This document shows, piece after piece, positions 41,045-48,102 of a DNA stretch of 64,000 nucleotides (positions are counted from its first letter, which is position 1; every line of letters starts with the position of its first letter). Source of the DNA: Sabulicella rubraurantiaca. GTDB taxonomy: Bacteria; Pseudomonadota; Alphaproteobacteria; Acetobacterales; Acetobacteraceae. A model generated the notes under the pieces. That model saw only the letters and a list, made by a program, of their open reading frames with translations, was not told the DNA's origin and did no database searches. Position numbers and translations under genes: made by a program. The DNA lies in assembly GCF_017355885.1 (NCBI RefSeq), contig NZ_JAFEUU010000005.1, positions 248,001 to 312,000 of the forward strand. The letters run 5' to 3'.

Positions 41045-41468
41045 GGGACGGGCAGGCTCTACGTCTTCGATCCAGCCGCGGCGGTTGGCCGGTTTCGAAC
41101 ACGGGACTGGCGCGAGCGTAAGTCACGTCACGTGGCCGAGAGATAAGTCTACCGGAGCTTCCGAATGATGGACGGAAATACTGATCTGCACCGAAATTGG
41201 AAATGCCTACCAAACTCTTTTGATTGATATGAATAGAGGAGTATCGGTGCATATCAGCTACAGTCCAGGCTGAAAGCCTCTACCGTCGTCCTAGTATTTC
41301 TTTGCGCTGATCTGCGCCCGAGCGCGCTTCGGTCCTGGGCCGGGCCCACAAGTTGGCGATTCTAGCTTCAGTGGTCCAGCGAGGTTGGCCTCATGCTGCG
41401 CCAGTAAGTCGATTCACGATGAGATCACGATCGGGCTGCAAGTTGATCCGACGGATCGGAGCACGAAG
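41045..41468. other. Intergenic region, AT-rich, before the heme peroxidase gene
   Basis: No gene is visible. The stretch 41140-41310 is markedly richer in A and T than the surroundings and contains the inverted repeat listed separately. It probably holds the promoter for the peroxidase gene. The composition break marks the start of the peroxidase-YcaO locus. Confidence 0.45.
41181..41257. repeat. 14-bp inverted repeat with one mismatch, 49-bp spacer
   Basis: CTGATCTGCACCGA (41181-41194) is repeated as the inverted TCGGTGCATATCAG (41244-41257), matching at 13 of 14 positions. The 77-bp element could be a regulator site pair, a DNA hairpin, or the relic of a very small mobile element. No target duplication was seen. 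Confidence 0.6.
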
Positions 41469-43217
41469 ATGTCCTCACGACATGGATCGGGCGTAGCTGC
41501 CGCCGCAGCCTGTCAGGGCTTCCGCAAGCCCCGCCCATCGCCAGGACCACGCCAGATTCTGCGCGGGTACCGGCATATCTTCCGTGATCCGGAGCCCGAG
41601 CAGAGATTCGGGAATGGTCGTGCTCCCGAGGAGGTGATCCGGCTGCTCGGCGTGCTCAACAAGCGGCTGGAGAACTTCGACGAGGTTCCCGAGGATGTCT
41701 CGGAGTTCGAGAATCCGAACATCCCGAGCGGCTACACCTATGTGCTGCAACTCATCGCGCATGACTGCGTCCGAACCTCGACACCGTTCTGGGCGGTGCC
41801 CGATGCGCTTCCCATCTCGCGCAACACGCGCCTCGCGCGGCTGCAACTCGACACCTTGTACGGGGAAGGGCCGTCGGCGTGCCCCCATGCCTATGCACCG
41901 GACGACGCTGAAGACACCTCGCGGACGCGGCTGGGCATTGGCCGGATGCGGGCAGCGCCTGACAGACCTGCTGATGGGGGCTTCTTCCGGGACATTCCGC
42001 GCGCTGGGGTGATCCGGGCGGGGAATGGACCAGCGAAGCCTAACCCGGCCGATCCGCTGATCGCCGACCCCCGAAATGAGGACAACGCCTTGGTCGCGCA
42101 GGTGACGACGTTGTTCTGCATGCTGCACAACGTGATCGTCGACATGCTTTCGGGTCTGAACGGCAGGGATGCGCGCGCCATCGAGAAGCGCTTCGTTTGC
42201 GCGCGGGCGGCAACGACGATGATCTACCGTCATATCCTGTGCCACGACGTGCTGCGCCGCATCCTCGATTGTGACGTCCGCGAGGCCTACGAAGCCAAGG
42301 TTCTGGCCGCCGACGACCCCTCCATGCTGCTGCATCGTGAAGATGGCCAGGAGGACGGCTTCGTCTCGGTGCCGCTGGAATTCTCGCATGGCGCGTTCCG
42401 CTTTGCCCACTCCATGGTGCGGCCCCTCTACCGCACTAATGGTTCCACGCGGGTGCCCGTCACGTCAGCGCTGATGGCGACGAGCGCCAGGCGCCCTGCC
42501 GCCATGCCTCTCGGCGAAGCGTGGATCCTCCGTTGGAGCAACTTCTTCGAGTTGCCGGAGGTCGAAGGATCTAAGCCCAATTTCAGCCTCCGGGTCGGTC
42601 CGCGCTACACGAAGGGCATGTTCAACACCACGCTATTCCCATCGCCTTTCACCGAGGATGACACCGGAGCGGGCGAGCGCCGGCACGGCGTGGCGTTCCT
42701 GGATCTGTTGAGCGCGGAGCGCGCCGGACTCTGGTCGGTGAATGCGCTGTATGAGGAAGCGCGCATCCGCATGACGAAGCGTGGATGGCCTGATGTATTC
42801 GCCAAGTCCGGGATGGCGACGCCGGAGGCGAGGCGGGACGCGGTAAAGAAGTTCCTTCTTCGCGAGCGGCCGCTTTCCGACGTGCCGTGCGAGGAGGATA
42901 TCAAAGCCCTTTCCGAGGATCCGCCACTGCCGTTCTACGTTCAGCTCGAAGCTGAACTGGACGGCAAGGGAGAGCGGCTTGGACCGCTCGGTTCGATCCT
43001 GGTTGGCGAGGTGATTTACGACGCGCTGATGGAGCATCGCTTGCCGGGCGAGGACCACGGCCAGCCGCTGGGAGAGAAGCTGGGCGCATTGCTGCGGCAA
43101 TTCAGGCAACCGCCGGAGGTGCTATCTGACGCTGCCAGGGTTTGCGACATGGCGGCGCTGGTCTCCTTCGTCCATCGCAACCGCGTGCCTGAGGAAGGCG
43201 AACCCAAGTTCCTTTGA
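41469..43217 (+). CDS. Animal-type heme peroxidase (peroxidase-cyclooxygenase superfamily)
   Basis: A 582-residue protein. The distal catalytic pair His98-Asp99 lies in LIAHDCVRT, the likely catalytic Arg in RAATTMIYRHIL, and the proximal heme His314 in FRFAHSMVRPLY, matching the family FxFxHSxxRP block. No signal peptide is seen, so it is probably cytoplasmic or exported by another route. Bacterial relatives oxidise halides, tyrosines or fatty acids with peroxide. A 128-residue unknown protein follows after 30 bases, and a BTAD regulator and YcaO enzyme converge from the right. The ATG at 41469 follows an AAG-rich stretch; the frame is open upstream to 41385. Confidence 0.85.
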   Translation: MSSRHGSGVAAAAACQGFRKPRPSPGPRQILRGYRHIFRDPEPEQRFGNGRAPEEVIRLLGVLNKRLENFDEVPEDVSEFENPNIPSGYTYVLQLIAHDCVRTSTPFWAVPDALPISRNTRLARLQLDTLYGEGPSACPHAYAPDDAEDTSRTRLGIGRMRAAPDRPADGGFFRDIPRAGVIRAGNGPAKPNPADPLIADPRNEDNALVAQVTTLFCMLHNVIVDMLSGLNGRDARAIEKRFVCARAATTMIYRHILCHDVLRRILDCDVREAYEAKVLAADDPSMLLHREDGQEDGFVSVPLEFSHGAFRFAHSMVRPLYRTNGSTRVPVTSALMATSARRPAAMPLGEAWILRWSNFFELPEVEGSKPNFSLRVGPRYTKGMFNTTLFPSPFTEDDTGAGERRHGVAFLDLLSAERAGLWSVNALYEEARIRMTKRGWPDVFAKSGMATPEARRDAVKKFLLRERPLSDVPCEEDIKALSEDPPLPFYVQLEAELDGKGERLGPLGSILVGEVIYDALMEHRLPGEDHGQPLGEKLGALLRQFRQPPEVLSDAARVCDMAALVSFVHRNRVPEEGEPKFL

Positions 43218-43247
43218 TTCCAACATGGCAGAAGGAAGGAGAAGACC

Positions 43248-43634
43248 ATGCCGAAGCCGATGACAGTCCAGAACCACGGCAATCTTGGGCGCCTGATACA
43301 GAAATGGGTCCTCGATCCCACCTCACGGCCGAAGGAAGGCGACTTGGTCGAGCTGAAGCGGCAACTGAACGATGCCGATGTCAGCGCCATGATCGACCCG
43401 GCCGTCACCACCTTCCGCTTCGCTACGCATAAGTCCGATGAACTCGTGCTCCGTCTGCCGCCGAAGGACATGTGGGAGGAGCATCGCAAACGGCTGGAAA
43501 CGGAAGACTACAACCTGCCGCCCTTCTATCGCGAGGTCTCGGCTCCAGGCGCCCAGCCGCACGCATCGGTGGACGACAAGCTGGCTTTCGATGAGGAGCG
43601 GCTTGGCGACTACACCATCGCCAACTGCGCCTGA
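43248..43634 (+). CDS. Unknown 128-residue protein downstream of the heme peroxidase
   Basis: Not recognised. The predicted protein is hydrophilic with no signal peptide or membrane segment. It has a helical N-terminal half with Trp and Asp-Pro (IQKWVLDP), a beta-like segment FRFATHKSDELVLRLPPK near residues 54-71, and the C-terminal end GDYTIANCA with the only Cys. A good GAAGGAGA-type site precedes the ATG. The 30-base gap to the peroxidase gene implies one transcript. It could be a substrate, chaperone or assembly partner of the peroxidase. A faint resemblance to nitrile-hydratase-like leader regions is discussed under findings and is not relied on here. Confidence 0.75.
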   Translation: MPKPMTVQNHGNLGRLIQKWVLDPTSRPKEGDLVELKRQLNDADVSAMIDPAVTTFRFATHKSDELVLRLPPKDMWEEHRKRLETEDYNLPPFYREVSAPGAQPHASVDDKLAFDEERLGDYTIANCA

Positions 43635-43644
43635 TGCTGCGGCG

Positions 43645-45675
43645 TCACCAGTCACCGAAGGAAAGGCCGGCAGCCTCTATGCCGGCGCCAGCGACACCGT
43701 GGCGGAGGCGTTCCCAGGTCTCCGCGCGGCTGATTGGATAGAGGTGCAGCAGCCAGCGCGCCATGCTGGCTTCGGTGGCGTCCTCCTGGCCGCGCCAAGC
43801 AGGCCGCACCAGTTCAAAGAACTGCGCGGCCGAGCGCCTGGCGCCTTCGATGTCACCGAGATTGAATAGCGCCGCGGCCCGCCAGGCCGGCAGCGCCCGG
43901 ATGCAATCCTCCGCGCGGTCGCAAGCCTCGACCGTCGCTTGGTCGTCGCCACGGAGATAGGCGATGGTGACCTGGTAGCCCCAATGCGTGCGTCCGGCGG
44001 AGAGCGTCATTTCGAGCGATTCCGCTGCCAGCCGTGCGGCTTCGGCGTGGTTGCCGCAGAACGCGTGGAACAGCGCGGCGGAGATCAGCGTCCAGGTGTC
44101 ATAGGGGTTCAGCTCGCAAGCCAGGGCCATCGGCGTGGTGGCGCGGTCGTGTTGCCGTGCCATCGCCAGCGACCATCCAAGGCAAAGCTGCGCGCGGCTG
44201 TCCATCGGATCGAGCTGGACGGCGCGTCGCGCCATCACAAGGGATCGCTCCTCGCGCGCGCGGTCCCTCCAGATGCCGGGGTTGACGATGTGCTCGACAT
44301 TGTCGAGCTGCGCGAGGCTGCTATAGGCCGGCGAGAAATTCGCGTCTTCTGCGATGGCCTCCCGGAACAGGGTCCGCGCACGCTCCCAGTGTTCCGGGCT
44401 GAAGCCGCGGATGATGCTCTGTCCGAGCAGCCATCGGTCATGTGCAGCGAGGGAGACCTCCGTGCCGCCGCTGATGCAGGACATCCGCGCCGACGAGATC
44501 TGGCCGTTCAACGACATCGCGATGCCGCGTACGAGACGAGTCTGCGCCTCGAACCAGGTTTCCAGGTCGAGGCCCATCTTCTCGCTCCACACCACGACGC
44601 CGCTTTCGGTGTCGCTCAGTGTCAGGACGAGGCTGACCCGTGTGCCGGCCTGGAAGGCTGTGCCGTCGATAGCGTAGCGGCTGGAAACCCGGCCCGCGAT
44701 TGCCGCTTCGGTTGGCGTGGTGGAGCCATCCAGCACGAACCATTCGCGGAACCGGGCGAGGCAGCCCATCAAATCGTGGCGGAAGCCCTGCACCAGGTGC
44801 TCCCGCCCTTCCGGCACGCCATGCGCAGCGAAGGGGCAGACGCGCAGCAGCATCCGGGTGCGCCCGGTGGCAGGCTGGGCAGGCCTCGCGGCGGGAGGGG
44901 GCGGAGCCGGCCGAGGCGACGCAAGCTCGAGGCTGCCGGACTTGATCGCCGCCACCAGCTCCTGCGTAGCCGGCGAGGGCTCCATGTCGAAATCCTCGCC
45001 CAGGAGGTTCCACAGGGATTCGTAGAGACGGAGGGCCCCGGCGATGTCGCCGTCGGCGACGGCGGCCTGCATGGCCCGCCGGCAGGCCTCCTCATGGGTG
45101 GGATCAAGGTTCAGCAGCGCGCGAGCGGCTTGGCGGCGGACTGCCGTGTCCGTCGCGTCCAGCAGTGCCTCCAGCCGCCGCGCGAAGGCATCGTGGAGGG
45201 ATTGCCGCTTCGCGAGCAGCCAGACATTGAAGGCTGGGTCGAGATCCTCATGCCCCTGGAGCAGCTCTTCGGTCAGGCTCGCTCGCTCCAGCAGCAGCAA
45301 TGGAACTTCCCCGGCGGCCAGCGCGGCATTCACGCCTTCCACATCCGAGGTGAGGCCACGCAGGTCGAGCACGAGGCTCAATCGTTCCGCCGCGAGCAGC
45401 CCAGGCGGCAGGGCCTCGCGCAGCTCGTGCACCACCTGACGCAGAGAGGCCCGTCCCTTCTCCTCGCTGGATTCGCTCCACAGCAGGCCGACGAGGCGTT
45501 CCCGCGTTTCCTCCCCTGTCGCCGACAGCGCCAGATAGGAGAGCACCGCGCGGGTCTTGCGATTGCGAAGCCGGATCTCGTGACCATCCAGGACCAACCT
45601 GAAGCCGCCAAGCAGCGACAGAGACAGGGACGCTGTCTGTGGTAGTCGCGCAGGCGCGGACAGGGTTGCCGACAT
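43645..45675 (-). CDS. BTAD-domain (SARP/AfsR-like) transcriptional regulator with TPR repeats
   Basis: A 676-residue regulator. Residues about 15-100 form an OmpR-like DNA-binding domain (LSLLGGFRLVLDGHEIRLR and SLRQVVHELREALP). A BTAD helical domain follows to about 255 (NLDPTHEEACRRAMQAAVAD). After a Pro/Ala linker, a FlgO/TolB-N-like module (about 275-390) precedes C-terminal TPR helices. SARP-type regulators control antibiotic clusters in actinomycetes; proteobacterial versions are less studied. It lies 72 bases behind the YcaO gene on the same strand and converges with the peroxidase pair, 10 bases apart. It is a likely regulator of this locus; its signal is unknown. Confidence 0.85.
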   Translation of the reverse strand: MSATLSAPARLPQTASLSLSLLGGFRLVLDGHEIRLRNRKTRAVLSYLALSATGEETRERLVGLLWSESSEEKGRASLRQVVHELREALPPGLLAAERLSLVLDLRGLTSDVEGVNAALAAGEVPLLLLERASLTEELLQGHEDLDPAFNVWLLAKRQSLHDAFARRLEALLDATDTAVRRQAARALLNLDPTHEEACRRAMQAAVADGDIAGALRLYESLWNLLGEDFDMEPSPATQELVAAIKSGSLELASPRPAPPPPAARPAQPATGRTRMLLRVCPFAAHGVPEGREHLVQGFRHDLMGCLARFREWFVLDGSTTPTEAAIAGRVSSRYAIDGTAFQAGTRVSLVLTLSDTESGVVVWSEKMGLDLETWFEAQTRLVRGIAMSLNGQISSARMSCISGGTEVSLAAHDRWLLGQSIIRGFSPEHWERARTLFREAIAEDANFSPAYSSLAQLDNVEHIVNPGIWRDRAREERSLVMARRAVQLDPMDSRAQLCLGWSLAMARQHDRATTPMALACELNPYDTWTLISAALFHAFCGNHAEAARLAAESLEMTLSAGRTHWGYQVTIAYLRGDDQATVEACDRAEDCIRALPAWRAAALFNLGDIEGARRSAAQFFELVRPAWRGQEDATEASMARWLLHLYPISRAETWERLRHGVAGAGIEAAGLSFGDW

Positions 45676-45747
45676 GGTGTCCCACCCAGAGGAGGGTTTC
45701 AGAACTTTCGTGGGCAGCTTCGAGCCTGAATATTCGCCTGCATAGAT

Positions 45748-46971
45748 TCAGGCGTGCAACATTATTCCGCGCCGTTGGCCCGGTCCCCCACCGGTTTTGG
45801 CGATGGCGGCCAGCAGGCGTGGCGGCACGCTCGTGGAAGGCGTGCAGGCCAAGCTGTCACAAATAGCGCGCCAAACCGGAACCGGATCCGCCGCGTGCTC
45901 GACGAACCACAGGTCGAATCCCGCGGTGGCGAGCCGCCTGGCGATCTCTGTGAGCAGCTGCGCCGCCGAGCCGTGGAGGGCCTCGTCGGGGCCTGCTGCG
46001 CCCTTTGGATGCAAAAGCCATTCGGCGTTTGGCCTTACCCTACGCTTCCGTTCCAGAGTGGCGCGATCGCGCTTGTCCAGGCCCTCATCGCCGCGTTCCG
46101 CTGCCCTCGCCGCCACGATGCGCTGTCCCAGTTCGTTCTGGCAAAGTTCACGCAGCGCGGCCTCGGCGGCCGCTTGCAGCGTTGCGCGCGCCGCTGTCCC
46201 GCAGCAGAAGCCCGTCCCGTCGGCGGCGAAGGAGATTGCCGCAGCCGCCGGCACTCCCAGATCTGTCGTGATGTCGATGGCCCAGGTGACGCGACCTGTC
46301 TTACGCGCGCGCCAAGCGGCGAGGGTCGCAGCGGCGGTGGCTTCCAGGGCGGGAGGGAGCGGTCGTCCAGCCCGCCCGCCGATCCACCACAAGGCGACAG
46401 CGTCGCGCTCAATGAGTTCGAGCACGGCTCGCAGCCGCGCCTCGGCCGCAGTGGGCGCCGCGGCGCAGCCGATCGAGAGCGGCCTGGGTGCCGGCTGGGT
46501 AACCCGGGCTGGCGCCCTCCGGTAGCAATGGTCGAAGGGCAGGGGGTGAAGCCCATCGCCTGACCAATGTCGGGCAAGCACCGTGTCGCCACGGCGCATG
46601 GCCCTCGCCGCCGGGGTCTCGACCTGCGCGGCGAACTCCACCGCCTCGCCGATGCAGGCCGCGAAGGCGGCTCCGGCCGCTTCCGCGAGGCCGGACGTGC
46701 CCAGGACCTGCAGCCCCGGCTCGCCCGCAATCTCCGCCAGATCGATCTCGGCGCCGAAGCAGTACAGCCGCGGCGCGTCCCGCACGCGCAGCCGGAACAC
46801 GCGCCGGCACGATGCCGCCACCTTCAGCAGCGCCGCGCGGTTGGCGCGCAAATCAGGCGGCGCATCCAGATCCCACTGGAGGAAGCCGAGCAGTTCGCGG
46901 GCCGCCTCATTCGGTGCGTCGCCGGTCTGTGCCGCCGCCGCGGCGAGCAGCGTCGCCGGCTCTAGGGCCAT
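45748..46971 (-). CDS. Stand-alone YcaO-family enzyme
   Basis: A 407-residue protein with the three ATP-binding blocks of the YcaO fold. The first is TSGLAEAAGAAFAACIGEAV with Glu109 and Glu112, the second EARLRAVLELIERDAVALWW with Glu185, Glu188 and Arg189, and the third AAEAALRELCQNELGQR with Glu270, Glu275 and Gln278. YcaO enzymes use ATP to activate peptide amides, forming azolines, thioamides or amidines. The C-terminal PxPxP tail of azoline-forming members is absent; it ends GQRRGIMLHA. No ThiF-like partner, TfuA, dehydrogenase or clear precursor peptide is adjacent. A GGGAG site is five bases before the ATG. The BTAD regulator follows in the same transcript. Confidence 0.85.
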   Translation of the reverse strand: MALEPATLLAAAAAQTGDAPNEAARELLGFLQWDLDAPPDLRANRAALLKVAASCRRVFRLRVRDAPRLYCFGAEIDLAEIAGEPGLQVLGTSGLAEAAGAAFAACIGEAVEFAAQVETPAARAMRRGDTVLARHWSGDGLHPLPFDHCYRRAPARVTQPAPRPLSIGCAAAPTAAEARLRAVLELIERDAVALWWIGGRAGRPLPPALEATAAATLAAWRARKTGRVTWAIDITTDLGVPAAAAISFAADGTGFCCGTAARATLQAAAEAALRELCQNELGQRIVAARAAERGDEGLDKRDRATLERKRRVRPNAEWLLHPKGAAGPDEALHGSAAQLLTEIARRLATAGFDLWFVEHAADPVPVWRAICDSLACTPSTSVPPRLLAAIAKTGGGPGQRRGIMLHA

Positions 46972-47709
46972 GGCACTCCCCTGTCCTGATGCCGCAATTC
47001 ACGTATGCCTCACGGCAGGGTGGCGGAGGCGGGGGCCGGGATGGAAGCGCGCTGAGGACCTAAGGCTTCGTCACCGCCTCCCTCAGCGTGGCGCAGCATC
47101 TCCCCGCCGGCAGCAGCGCAGTCCGGCGTCGCCAGGTCCGTTCTCCCGCGCTCGCGCCCTGCGGGGAAGCTGCTGCTGATCGGCTGGGCAGGGTCGAGGC
47201 ATGCGAAAAGCCTGGTCTTTGCTGGGCTTTCCGGGGGCCCGCCTTGTCGATGCCATGGATGCGGTTCGCCTTTCCTGTGCCACCGTACCCTGCGGCCGGT
47301 CGGCCAGTTGCGGCCGAGGAACGGCGACGCTGGGTCACGGGTGGACTAGCCGCTTTTGCGCCTCGCCCTGCGCCTGGAGGGGGCGCGCACTTGGATCGTC
47401 GCGAAAGAGAATTGGTCTTGCTTCGGCGCGGTGATGTGAGGATCACGCTGGTCTGACGAAGGCTTGATGCCCCCCCGTGCAGTCTCCTTTCGCGCCTCGA
47501 TGGCGCACCAGGAAAGGAGACCGGACATGCTGCCGAAATTCTTCATCAGAGCAGGCTGCGCGATCGCAATGCCGGTCGCGCAAGCCGGATGCACCAGCCA
47601 CCCCATGGCCGACACCTGGCCTGTCGCGATGTCGGAGCGTCACCAGCGGTTCGCCGCTCTGCCGGCTGCCGCGGTGCTTGACCAAGACACAATCGAGAGG
47701 AGCATTCCC
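46972..47709. other. Intergenic region between the YcaO gene and the small secreted protein gene
   Basis: Several short open frames on both strands cover this stretch, but none combines a ribosome-binding site with the strong third-position GC bias of real genes here. The in-frame stretch from 47527 encodes a lipobox-like MPVAQAGC ahead of the true start at 47710. A 24-codon Gly-rich frame at 46989-47063 is listed separately. The promoter of the YcaO-BTAD unit must lie at the left end. Confidence 0.4.
46989..47063 (+). CDS. Possible 24-residue Gly-rich peptide, divergent from YcaO
   Basis: An ATG-TAA frame encoding a peptide with six consecutive Gly in its middle (RQGGGGGGRDG) and Ser, Thr, Tyr residues on both sides. 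It begins 17 bases from the YcaO start, divergent. Short Gly/Ser-rich peptides are common substrates of YcaO enzymes, which is the only reason to note it. There is no good ribosome-binding site, and chance occurrence in GC-rich DNA is likely. Confidence 0.15.
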   Translation: MPQFTYASRQGGGGGGRDGSALRT

Positions 47710-48102
47710 ATGACCAAGATCCGCAACACCCTCGCCCTTTTCGCTGTCGCCGCCGCCATTCTCGGCTCGGGCGCGGCAGGCGCGCAGTCCTGCCCGTGCA
47801 TGACCCGTGGTGCCGAGGATTCGAGCATCGACTACGGTTCGGCAGCGCCTAACAACGTCGTCGGCGGCGGCAACCTAGTCGCCCGCTTCGAGGAGGAAAA
47901 CCGCACCTTCACCTACCTTGAGCCGCGGTTCGAGCAGCAGGCTCAGACCGGTCTGGTGCCCCATGTCTTCACCTCGGGTGACGGACGGGCCGAGGTGGTG
48001 TGGGTGCCTTCGGGCACGCTGCCCAGCGCCCTGGCCACGATGGGTGGTGACGGTAGCCTGCTCCGGCAGCGTGGCCTCCAGCGGCGCCTCGCCAGCCGGT
48101 GA
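47710..48102 (+). CDS. Small secreted protein of unknown function
   Basis: A 130-residue protein with a clear signal peptide (MTKIRNTLALFAVAAAILGS, cleavage near GAAGAQS). The mature protein of about 105 residues starts SCPCMTRG, with the only two Cys close together, then acidic and Gly-rich stretches and a basic C-terminus (RQRGLQRRLASR). GAGAGGAG about 9 bases before the ATG supports this start. Not recognised. The N-terminal Cys-x-Cys could bind metal or form a disulfide. A stable hairpin 40 bases downstream suggests a single-gene transcript. Confidence 0.65.
   Translation: MTKIRNTLALFAVAAAILGSGAAGAQSCPCMTRGAEDSSIDYGSAAPNNVVGGGNLVARFEEENRTFTYLEPRFEQQAQTGLVPHVFTSGDGRAEVVWVPSGTLPSALATMGGDGSLLRQRGLQRRLASR

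Follow-up and report, generated by a model that had tools for sequence, protein, structure and literature searches.

Four genes converge in a 64,000-nucleotide stretch of the Sabulicella rubraurantiaca genome (Acetobacteraceae; assembly GCF_017355885.1, contig NZ_JAFEUU010000005.1, positions 248,001 to 312,000), which we refer to as the window. A gene for an animal-type heme peroxidase and one for a 128-residue orphan protein, called U128 here, lie on the forward strand and converge on genes for a BTAD/TPR regulator and a stand-alone YcaO enzyme on the reverse strand (Table 1). The open reading frame (ORF) list and a Pfam scan of the window ORFs located all four genes where a sequence-only reading had put them; of the span 41181-47063 given in that reading, the gene content stood, and the end required correction, as 47063 lies about 90 nt beyond the YcaO start at 46971. 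The U128 ORF begins 30 nt past the peroxidase stop codon and is preceded on its 5' side by a purine-rich stretch; the gap between U128 and the convergent BTAD gene is 10 nt.

Table 1. Features of the YcaO-peroxidase locus (window coordinates)
Feature	Position	Strand	Remarks
MPO-type (myeloperoxidase-type, animal-type) heme peroxidase	41469..43217	+	582 aa from ATG; PF03098 E 9e-10
U128, 128-aa orphan protein, proposed substrate/carrier	43248..43634	+	ORF; AlphaFold2 (AF2) model; no fold match
U128 C-terminal tail R-L-G-D-Y-T-I-A-N-C-A, residues 118-128	43599..43631	+	Proposed modification site; tail motif in 65/65 homologues
BTAD/TPR regulator, like Streptomyces antibiotic regulatory proteins (SARP), 676 aa	43645..45675	-	PF03704 E 6e-10
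Stand-alone YcaO of 407 aa with intact ATP motifs and without a PxPxP tail	45748..46971	-	PF02624 E 1e-30
Probable M192-family remnant, divergent from YcaO	47131..47433	+	One in-frame TAG; weak match, E 0.019

The same reading had proposed that the four genes form one system, with two unrelated units as the alternative, and had named the gene neighborhoods of close homologs as the check. That comparison revealed gene linkage stronger than is visible from the window sequence alone. In all 16 further Acetobacteraceae loci with this YcaO gene, the peroxidase, BTAD and U128 genes are present in the same convergent layout (16/16 for the BTAD homologue as for the others; the divergent U128 copy of locus L034, found by reading the gap, is included). 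The gene set recurs in Acetobacteraceae, Bradyrhizobium and Hyphomicrobium relatives, and 44 named U128 loci include members of Belnapia, Falsiroseomonas, Rhodovarius, Roseomonas, Bradyrhizobium and Hyphomicrobium. The window YcaO alone, used as a query against genome contigs, gave no match; the U128 alignment worked as a query.

The fetched stretches held 66 distinct complete U128 frames; leaving out a broken one (L124), 65 intact genes remained in 64 stretches, with each distinct sequence entered once, frames truncated by a contig end skipped and one stretch with two U128 genes (L160) counted twice. These 65 genes shared their stretch with a peroxidase in 63 cases, a BTAD gene in 61, a YcaO gene in 53 and a fifth family, M192, in 41, and peroxidase, BTAD and YcaO were found together for 50 of them. 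Counted as present were a distant peroxidase (L167, 128 bits), a peroxidase cut by a contig end (L037) and a YcaO gene in two pieces (L178). Among the 15 U128 genes without the full set, 5 were cut by a contig end (L075, L083, L085, L092 and L098) and 10 deviated: L078 and L081 had only the peroxidase in the stretch with U128; L110, L113, L120 and L126 had no YcaO in the stretch, that of L126 sitting 13 kb off on the same contig; the adjacent YcaO was broken in L179; L161 had no BTAD gene; and L164 and L166 held U128, BTAD and YcaO genes with no peroxidase. U128 is the hub of the cassette: in L164 and L166, which have no peroxidase, it remains with YcaO, and in L078, L081, L110, L113, L120 and L126, which have no YcaO alongside, it remains with the peroxidase.

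A U128 profile matched 30 of 397 genomes of the family, 3 of 385 in the class sample, 6 of 398 in the phylum sample (all 6 of the same class) and 36 of 146 in a Bradyrhizobium genus sample; the family, class and phylum samples include the window's own genome. Of 249 Acetobacteraceae genomes, 18 carried U128 and exactly these 18 carried the cassette-type peroxidase, with the cassette YcaO present in 17 of them and in 0 of the other 231; in the exception, G035, the contig ends 95 bp past U128. Of the cassette-type peroxidases, 17 scored ≥434 bits and the remaining one, truncated at a contig end, scored 187; no other heme peroxidase exceeded 183. Across all U128-positive Acetobacteraceae genomes, 28 of 30 carried the cassette YcaO, although in two of them (one is G305) just a fragment at the edge of a contig was present. 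The corresponding figure for Bradyrhizobium was 36 of 36 (two pieces in G812 and G833), compared with 0 of the 20 tested among 110 U128-negative genomes of the genus. Five of those 20 gave weak YcaO matches (77-87 bits) within frames of 757-795 aa that belong to another YcaO type. The U128-positive genomes G1162 and G1174 also carry the cassette YcaO.

These results support the view that the four genes are one evolutionary unit, and independent occurrence of the two pairs in most genomes was not borne out. The genes do face each other, so at least two transcripts must be involved; the idea that two unrelated units converge by chance is nonetheless highly improbable given the same arrangement in 16/16 further loci, and we reject it on the co-occurrence results (Fisher p 2e-25 and 9e-28, values that ignore kinship and are descriptive only). 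A housekeeping role for the YcaO, as a uL16-thioamidating enzyme whose position here is incidental, might be argued from its being the only YcaO (sole PF02624 match) of the genome and from the reported wide distribution of uL16-modifying YcaO enzymes in Pseudomonadota, as given in the available part of PMC13063428. We find this explanation scarcely credible and reject it on the narrow, U128-linked distribution and the isoelectric point (pI): the E. coli type is strongly acidic and broadly distributed, whereas relatives of the window YcaO (E ≤ 1e-10) occur in only 17 of 249 family genomes, the window's own included, and pI values over 29 aligned rows are 5.0-8.8 (median 5.6; window YcaO, 8.6), against 4.4 reported for the E. 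coli enzyme (EcYcaO) in the same portion of PMC13063428.

In Bradyrhizobium we also observed the other YcaO type, with frames of about 750-800 aa, in G788, G791, G798, G801, G808 and others, where it occurs independently of the cassette.

The window U128 gave only noise-level matches in Pfam, NCBIfam, PHROGs and PDB sequences, and a plasmid collection held no match to U128 from Bradyrhizobium or the window. None of 17 U128 members matched a nitrile hydratase leader peptide (NHLP), Nif11 or nitrile hydratase model in Pfam or NCBIfam. An AF2 model built from 35 sequences had a mean predicted local distance difference test score (pLDDT) of 89.4 and a predicted template modeling score (pTM) of 0.72; by ten-residue block, pLDDT was 85-97 in 11 of 13 blocks and 79 in one, and it dropped to 70 for the final block, residues 121-128. 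The model is thus confident for most of the body, which is predicted to be folded, and it matched no PDB fold with E ≤ 0.001.

The C-terminal end of U128 is its best-conserved part. A motif R-x-x-[DE]-Y-[ST]-x-x-x-C-x-stop closes all 65 intact distinct proteins; among members found by profile it takes forms such as RIGEYTLNNCM, RVGDYSVGSCM, RVADYTISVCS and RIGEYSVNECC. The Arg, Tyr and Cys of this tail are invariant (65/65) and are encoded by 5, 2 and 2 codons, respectively; the last residue is variable. In 50 of the 65 proteins the homologous region has no Cys besides the penultimate one, and Cys127 is the sole Cys of the window U128. Over the last 12 alignment columns the mean top-residue frequency is 0.74, versus 0.51 for the remainder; the body also holds invariant residues (G14, Y88 and Y94). 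As an explanation of the conserved tail, a DNA-level constraint from the convergent gene was rejected: the motif is kept where the BTAD gene is 1.2 kb away (L087) or not adjacent (L078 and L081), and several synonymous codons are used. One Bradyrhizobium stretch (L160, 7411-8312, reverse strand) holds two tandem U128 genes with identical tails beside one YcaO-BTAD pair and one peroxidase.

As the constant element of the cassette, and one with an invariant Cys-containing C-terminal tail, U128 is the best candidate substrate, as the sequence-only reading had guessed. A precursor of ribosomally synthesized and post-translationally modified peptides (RiPPs) is a linked small protein with a leader and a C-terminal core that undergoes modification; U128 (about 128-180 residues among relatives) has the linkage and an invariant Cys-containing C-terminus, which would be a candidate core. 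On balance, we favor the view that the locus is a compact protein-modifying cassette in which the U128 tail is activated by the YcaO with the peroxidase as oxidative partner, and the tail is probably the part that is chemically altered. We infer the identity of the substrate, the order of steps, the chemistry, the regulation and the fate of the product from these sequence patterns. The small folded body of U128 would serve as a structured leader or scaffold that presents the tail to the enzymes. The YcaO would bind U128 and, at the expense of ATP, activate the amide of the backbone that precedes the penultimate Cys, with a thiazoline as the simplest guess; a cyclodehydratase would require just such a single fixed Cys after variable residues. 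The heme peroxidase, probably cotranscribed with U128, would carry out an oxidative step on the same tail, either converting thiazoline to thiazole or oxidizing or coupling the invariant Tyr. The BTAD/TPR protein would control expression, and the end product may be modified U128 itself or a short peptide liberated from it.

The cassette enzyme has the ATP/Mg-binding Glu motifs of the YcaO superfamily: E109/E112, E185/E188/R189/D190 and E275/Q278/E280 were invariant in alignments of 16 and 29 rows, upholding the three Glu blocks seen earlier. An AF2 model (mean pLDDT 92.9) gave Foldseek matches to LynD and to the archaeal MjYcaO about equally well. A PxPxP C-terminus is the mark of the azoline cyclodehydratase pairs of thiazole/oxazole-modified microcins (TOMMs); in the 16-row alignment the C-terminus, mostly GGGxxxTGGIxL, contains no PxPxP, again as first read. 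The usual partners were likewise missing, as that reading had held, with no TfuA (PF07812) match in the whole genome and no E1/ocin-ThiF-like gene among the eight window ORFs scanned, four of them flanking; the rest of the genome was not searched for E1/ocin-ThiF. Pfam recognized no RiPP recognition element (RRE) in the window YcaO, and no search aimed at an RRE was made. The cassette YcaO belongs to the YcaO superfamily; by the marks examined here, the system does not fit the TOMM pairs, TfuA-dependent thioamidation, NHLP precursors or the uL16 enzyme.

Fold matches that include both LynD and MjYcaO leave room for thioamidation, in which the YcaO would thioamidate a U128 backbone amide (a +16 mass change) instead of forming an azoline. 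The missing PxPxP and E1-like gene fit this chemistry, as does the E. coli YcaO, described in the accessible text of PMC13063428 as thioamidating uL16 without TfuA. We consider it rather improbable, as thioamidation would not need the invariant Cys, the genome has no TfuA, the best PDB sequence matches of the enzyme are the cyclodehydratases LynD and TruD, and the NCBIfam profile that matches it (below its cutoff) is of the SagD type.

The window peroxidase matched Pfam An_peroxidase above the cutoff, in an ORF open from a TTG at 41385; one Bradyrhizobium cassette peroxidase fell below that cutoff (20.5 versus 25), and the peroxidase profile had no match among PDB sequences. Residues Q122, H126, D127, R230, R339 and H342 (610-aa numbering) were invariant in alignments of 16 and 26 rows. 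The distal His98 and proximal His314 named earlier correspond to H126 and H342 in this longer ORF, the earlier numbering having started at the ATG at 41469. By the myeloperoxidase motif, a distal Q-x3-H-D with R and a proximal R-x2-H, the enzyme keeps the distal and proximal residues expected for activity.

Another way to read the pair is that U128 assists the peroxidase as a small subunit, chaperone or redox mediator, with the tail and its Cys docking into that enzyme, and that modification of U128 or the peroxidase by YcaO serves only to stabilize the protein, as with McrA or uL16. The peroxidase and U128 genes stay adjacent when the BTAD and YcaO genes are elsewhere (L078 and L081), and G14, Y88 and Y94 are more body conservation than a mere leader seems to need. 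Also in keeping with this view, the target of the E. coli YcaO is a large protein, uL16, and that organism encodes no TfuA, as the available portion of PMC13063428 states. On the other side, U128 and YcaO are kept without a peroxidase in L164 and L166, genome G868 has U128 without the cassette peroxidase, and YcaO presence tracks U128 almost perfectly. We regard a subunit role as unlikely overall.

Returning to the tail-modifying cassette, several observations weigh against it. YcaO is not intact beside U128 for 8 of the 60 genes not cut by a contig end. For L078, L081, L110, L113, L120, L126 and L179 the genome carries a cassette YcaO at another place, which in the case of L081 is just a fragment next to a BTAD gene where a contig stops; the two-piece YcaO of L178 has no other copy among the matches listed. 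Two U128-positive Acetobacteraceae genomes, G035 (contig end) and G342 (U128 broken), and G779, a 2.2-Mb metagenome-assembled genome, gave no cassette YcaO. The peroxidase is the less essential partner, because it is absent from the stretch in L164 and L166, is represented only by the distant homolog in L167 and is absent as a cassette type from G868. Among 10 other recurring neighbor families scanned in Pfam there was no flavin dehydrogenase, and a trypsin-like/PDZ protease lies upstream of the cassette in 10 Bradyrhizobium stretches only (e.g., L085, 358-1455, reverse strand), its cluster holding no Acetobacteraceae stretch. In the U128 model, helix 108-124 takes in the tail Tyr, with the end less certain. 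The 44 named loci were selected by the pattern AxRIGDY[TS][IM][AS], and part of the motif uniformity among them is ascertainment; the tail Cys and stop lie outside the pattern, and U128 members found by profile show the same end. Most RiPP cores are not the best-conserved part of their precursor, unlike the supposed core of U128, which makes a released antibiotic-like peptide an unlikely product. A docking or catalytic role for the tail is possible.

The near-invariant end of U128 suggests that the cassette has a conserved physiological role rather than producing a variable antibiotic. In the precursors of pyrroloquinoline quinone (PQQ) and mycofactocin, invariant residues at or near the C-terminus become a redox cofactor, and U128 resembles them in that placement. 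We speculate, with low confidence, that the YcaO and the peroxidase could convert the tail Tyr and penultimate Cys into a novel redox cofactor or tag, either borne on the protein or derived from a peptide. A C-terminal group based on thiazole or on Tyr-Cys would be one example, and such a product would be a functional counterpart of PQQ or mycofactocin made without radical SAM chemistry. U128 differs from those precursors in being much larger, and a Pfam scan of four window ORFs on the flanks and of the 10 recurrent neighbors showed no radical SAM or PqqD-like family.

Other YcaO systems resemble the cassette in part. In methanogens, McrA is thioamidated. The McrA modifiers and the E. coli YcaO, reported to thioamidate uL16 (PMC13063428, in part), share with the cassette a YcaO without an E1/PxPxP partner and a folded protein substrate, and E. 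coli also has no TfuA; the cassette differs in its dedicated, linked and otherwise uncharacterized candidate substrate, its additional peroxidase and regulator and a YcaO that is not strongly acidic. Another parallel is MprC, a YcaO described in the available part of PMC12455567 as modifying long folded NHLP precursors with a flavin oxidase partner, MprD. That system gives a precedent for a folded precursor recognized by a YcaO, and in both cases a long folded body would present a Cys-bearing C-terminal segment to the enzyme before an oxidative partner follows. However, U128 matches no NHLP or nitrile hydratase model and no PDB fold, its Cys is single and at a fixed C-terminal position, a heme peroxidase replaces the flavin oxidase, and the RRE reported for MprC (same part of PMC12455567) was not among the Pfam matches of the window YcaO.

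Stand-alone YcaO RiPPs of the streptamidine type likewise tie one YcaO clade to one small-gene family by neighborhood, according to the available sections of PMC8442711, which give precursors of 31-89 residues, mostly from actinobacteria; U128 and its relatives, in contrast, are about 128-180 residues, predicted to be folded and alphaproteobacterial. The word peroxidase does not occur in the main text of that paper as available (PMC8442711). Within the accessible part of a survey of thioamidated clusters, Bradyrhizobium is mentioned twice, both times for TfuA-related cluster families, and peroxidase is not mentioned (PMC8120280). We came across no account of such a system, or of any YcaO paired with a heme peroxidase, in the open-access literature searched, which includes few subscription papers.

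The cassette links an orphan YcaO to an orphan protein that is its candidate substrate and has a fixed proposed modification site, in bacteria that include cultured Bradyrhizobium and Roseomonas relatives. If U128 is the substrate, YcaO enzymes would gain a new class of folded substrates; should the peroxidase act on this tail as well, it would be a heme peroxidase partner without a description alongside YcaO in the literature searched.

In the putative regulator, the BTAD domain named in the sequence-only reading scored above the Pfam cutoff; TPR signals, and those of the winged-helix DNA-binding domain that precedes BTAD in SARP-type regulators, fell below the cutoff (Trans_reg_C E 0.014). 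The same protein gave a weak PADLOC match to OloA (E 2e-5), which probably just reflects a shared domain and is not taken as a sign of a defense system.

M192 adjoins YcaO or lies upstream of the peroxidase in the stretches where it occurs, and three members had no Pfam match. The family was not visible from the window alone: close relatives carry an intact divergent copy at the equivalent place, and the window has the probable interrupted remnant at the expected position, with another weak match elsewhere in the genome (E 0.003). Pfam annotations of the 10 other recurring neighbor families include the trypsin/PDZ protease, DHDPS, a helix-turn-helix protein, a molybdopterin enzyme, a weak methyltransferase, phosphoglucomutase, GFO/IDH and TctC; 2 of the 10 had no Pfam match, and none was as widespread as M192.

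Upstream of the YcaO side of the window, a small protein (47704-48102, forward strand) has a signal-peptide-like start and a CPC motif; its longer ORF had no Pfam match, and tblastn found no match to it in 16 Acetobacteraceae loci. In L167 (4666-6390, forward strand), a second cassette copy adjoins the more distant heme peroxidase. One Bradyrhizobium genome holds a divergent second cassette (L166, 5645-9566) comprising YcaO, a U128 ending in Cys-Cys and BTAD, with no peroxidase in the stretch; the other U128 of that genome adjoins a cassette-type peroxidase.

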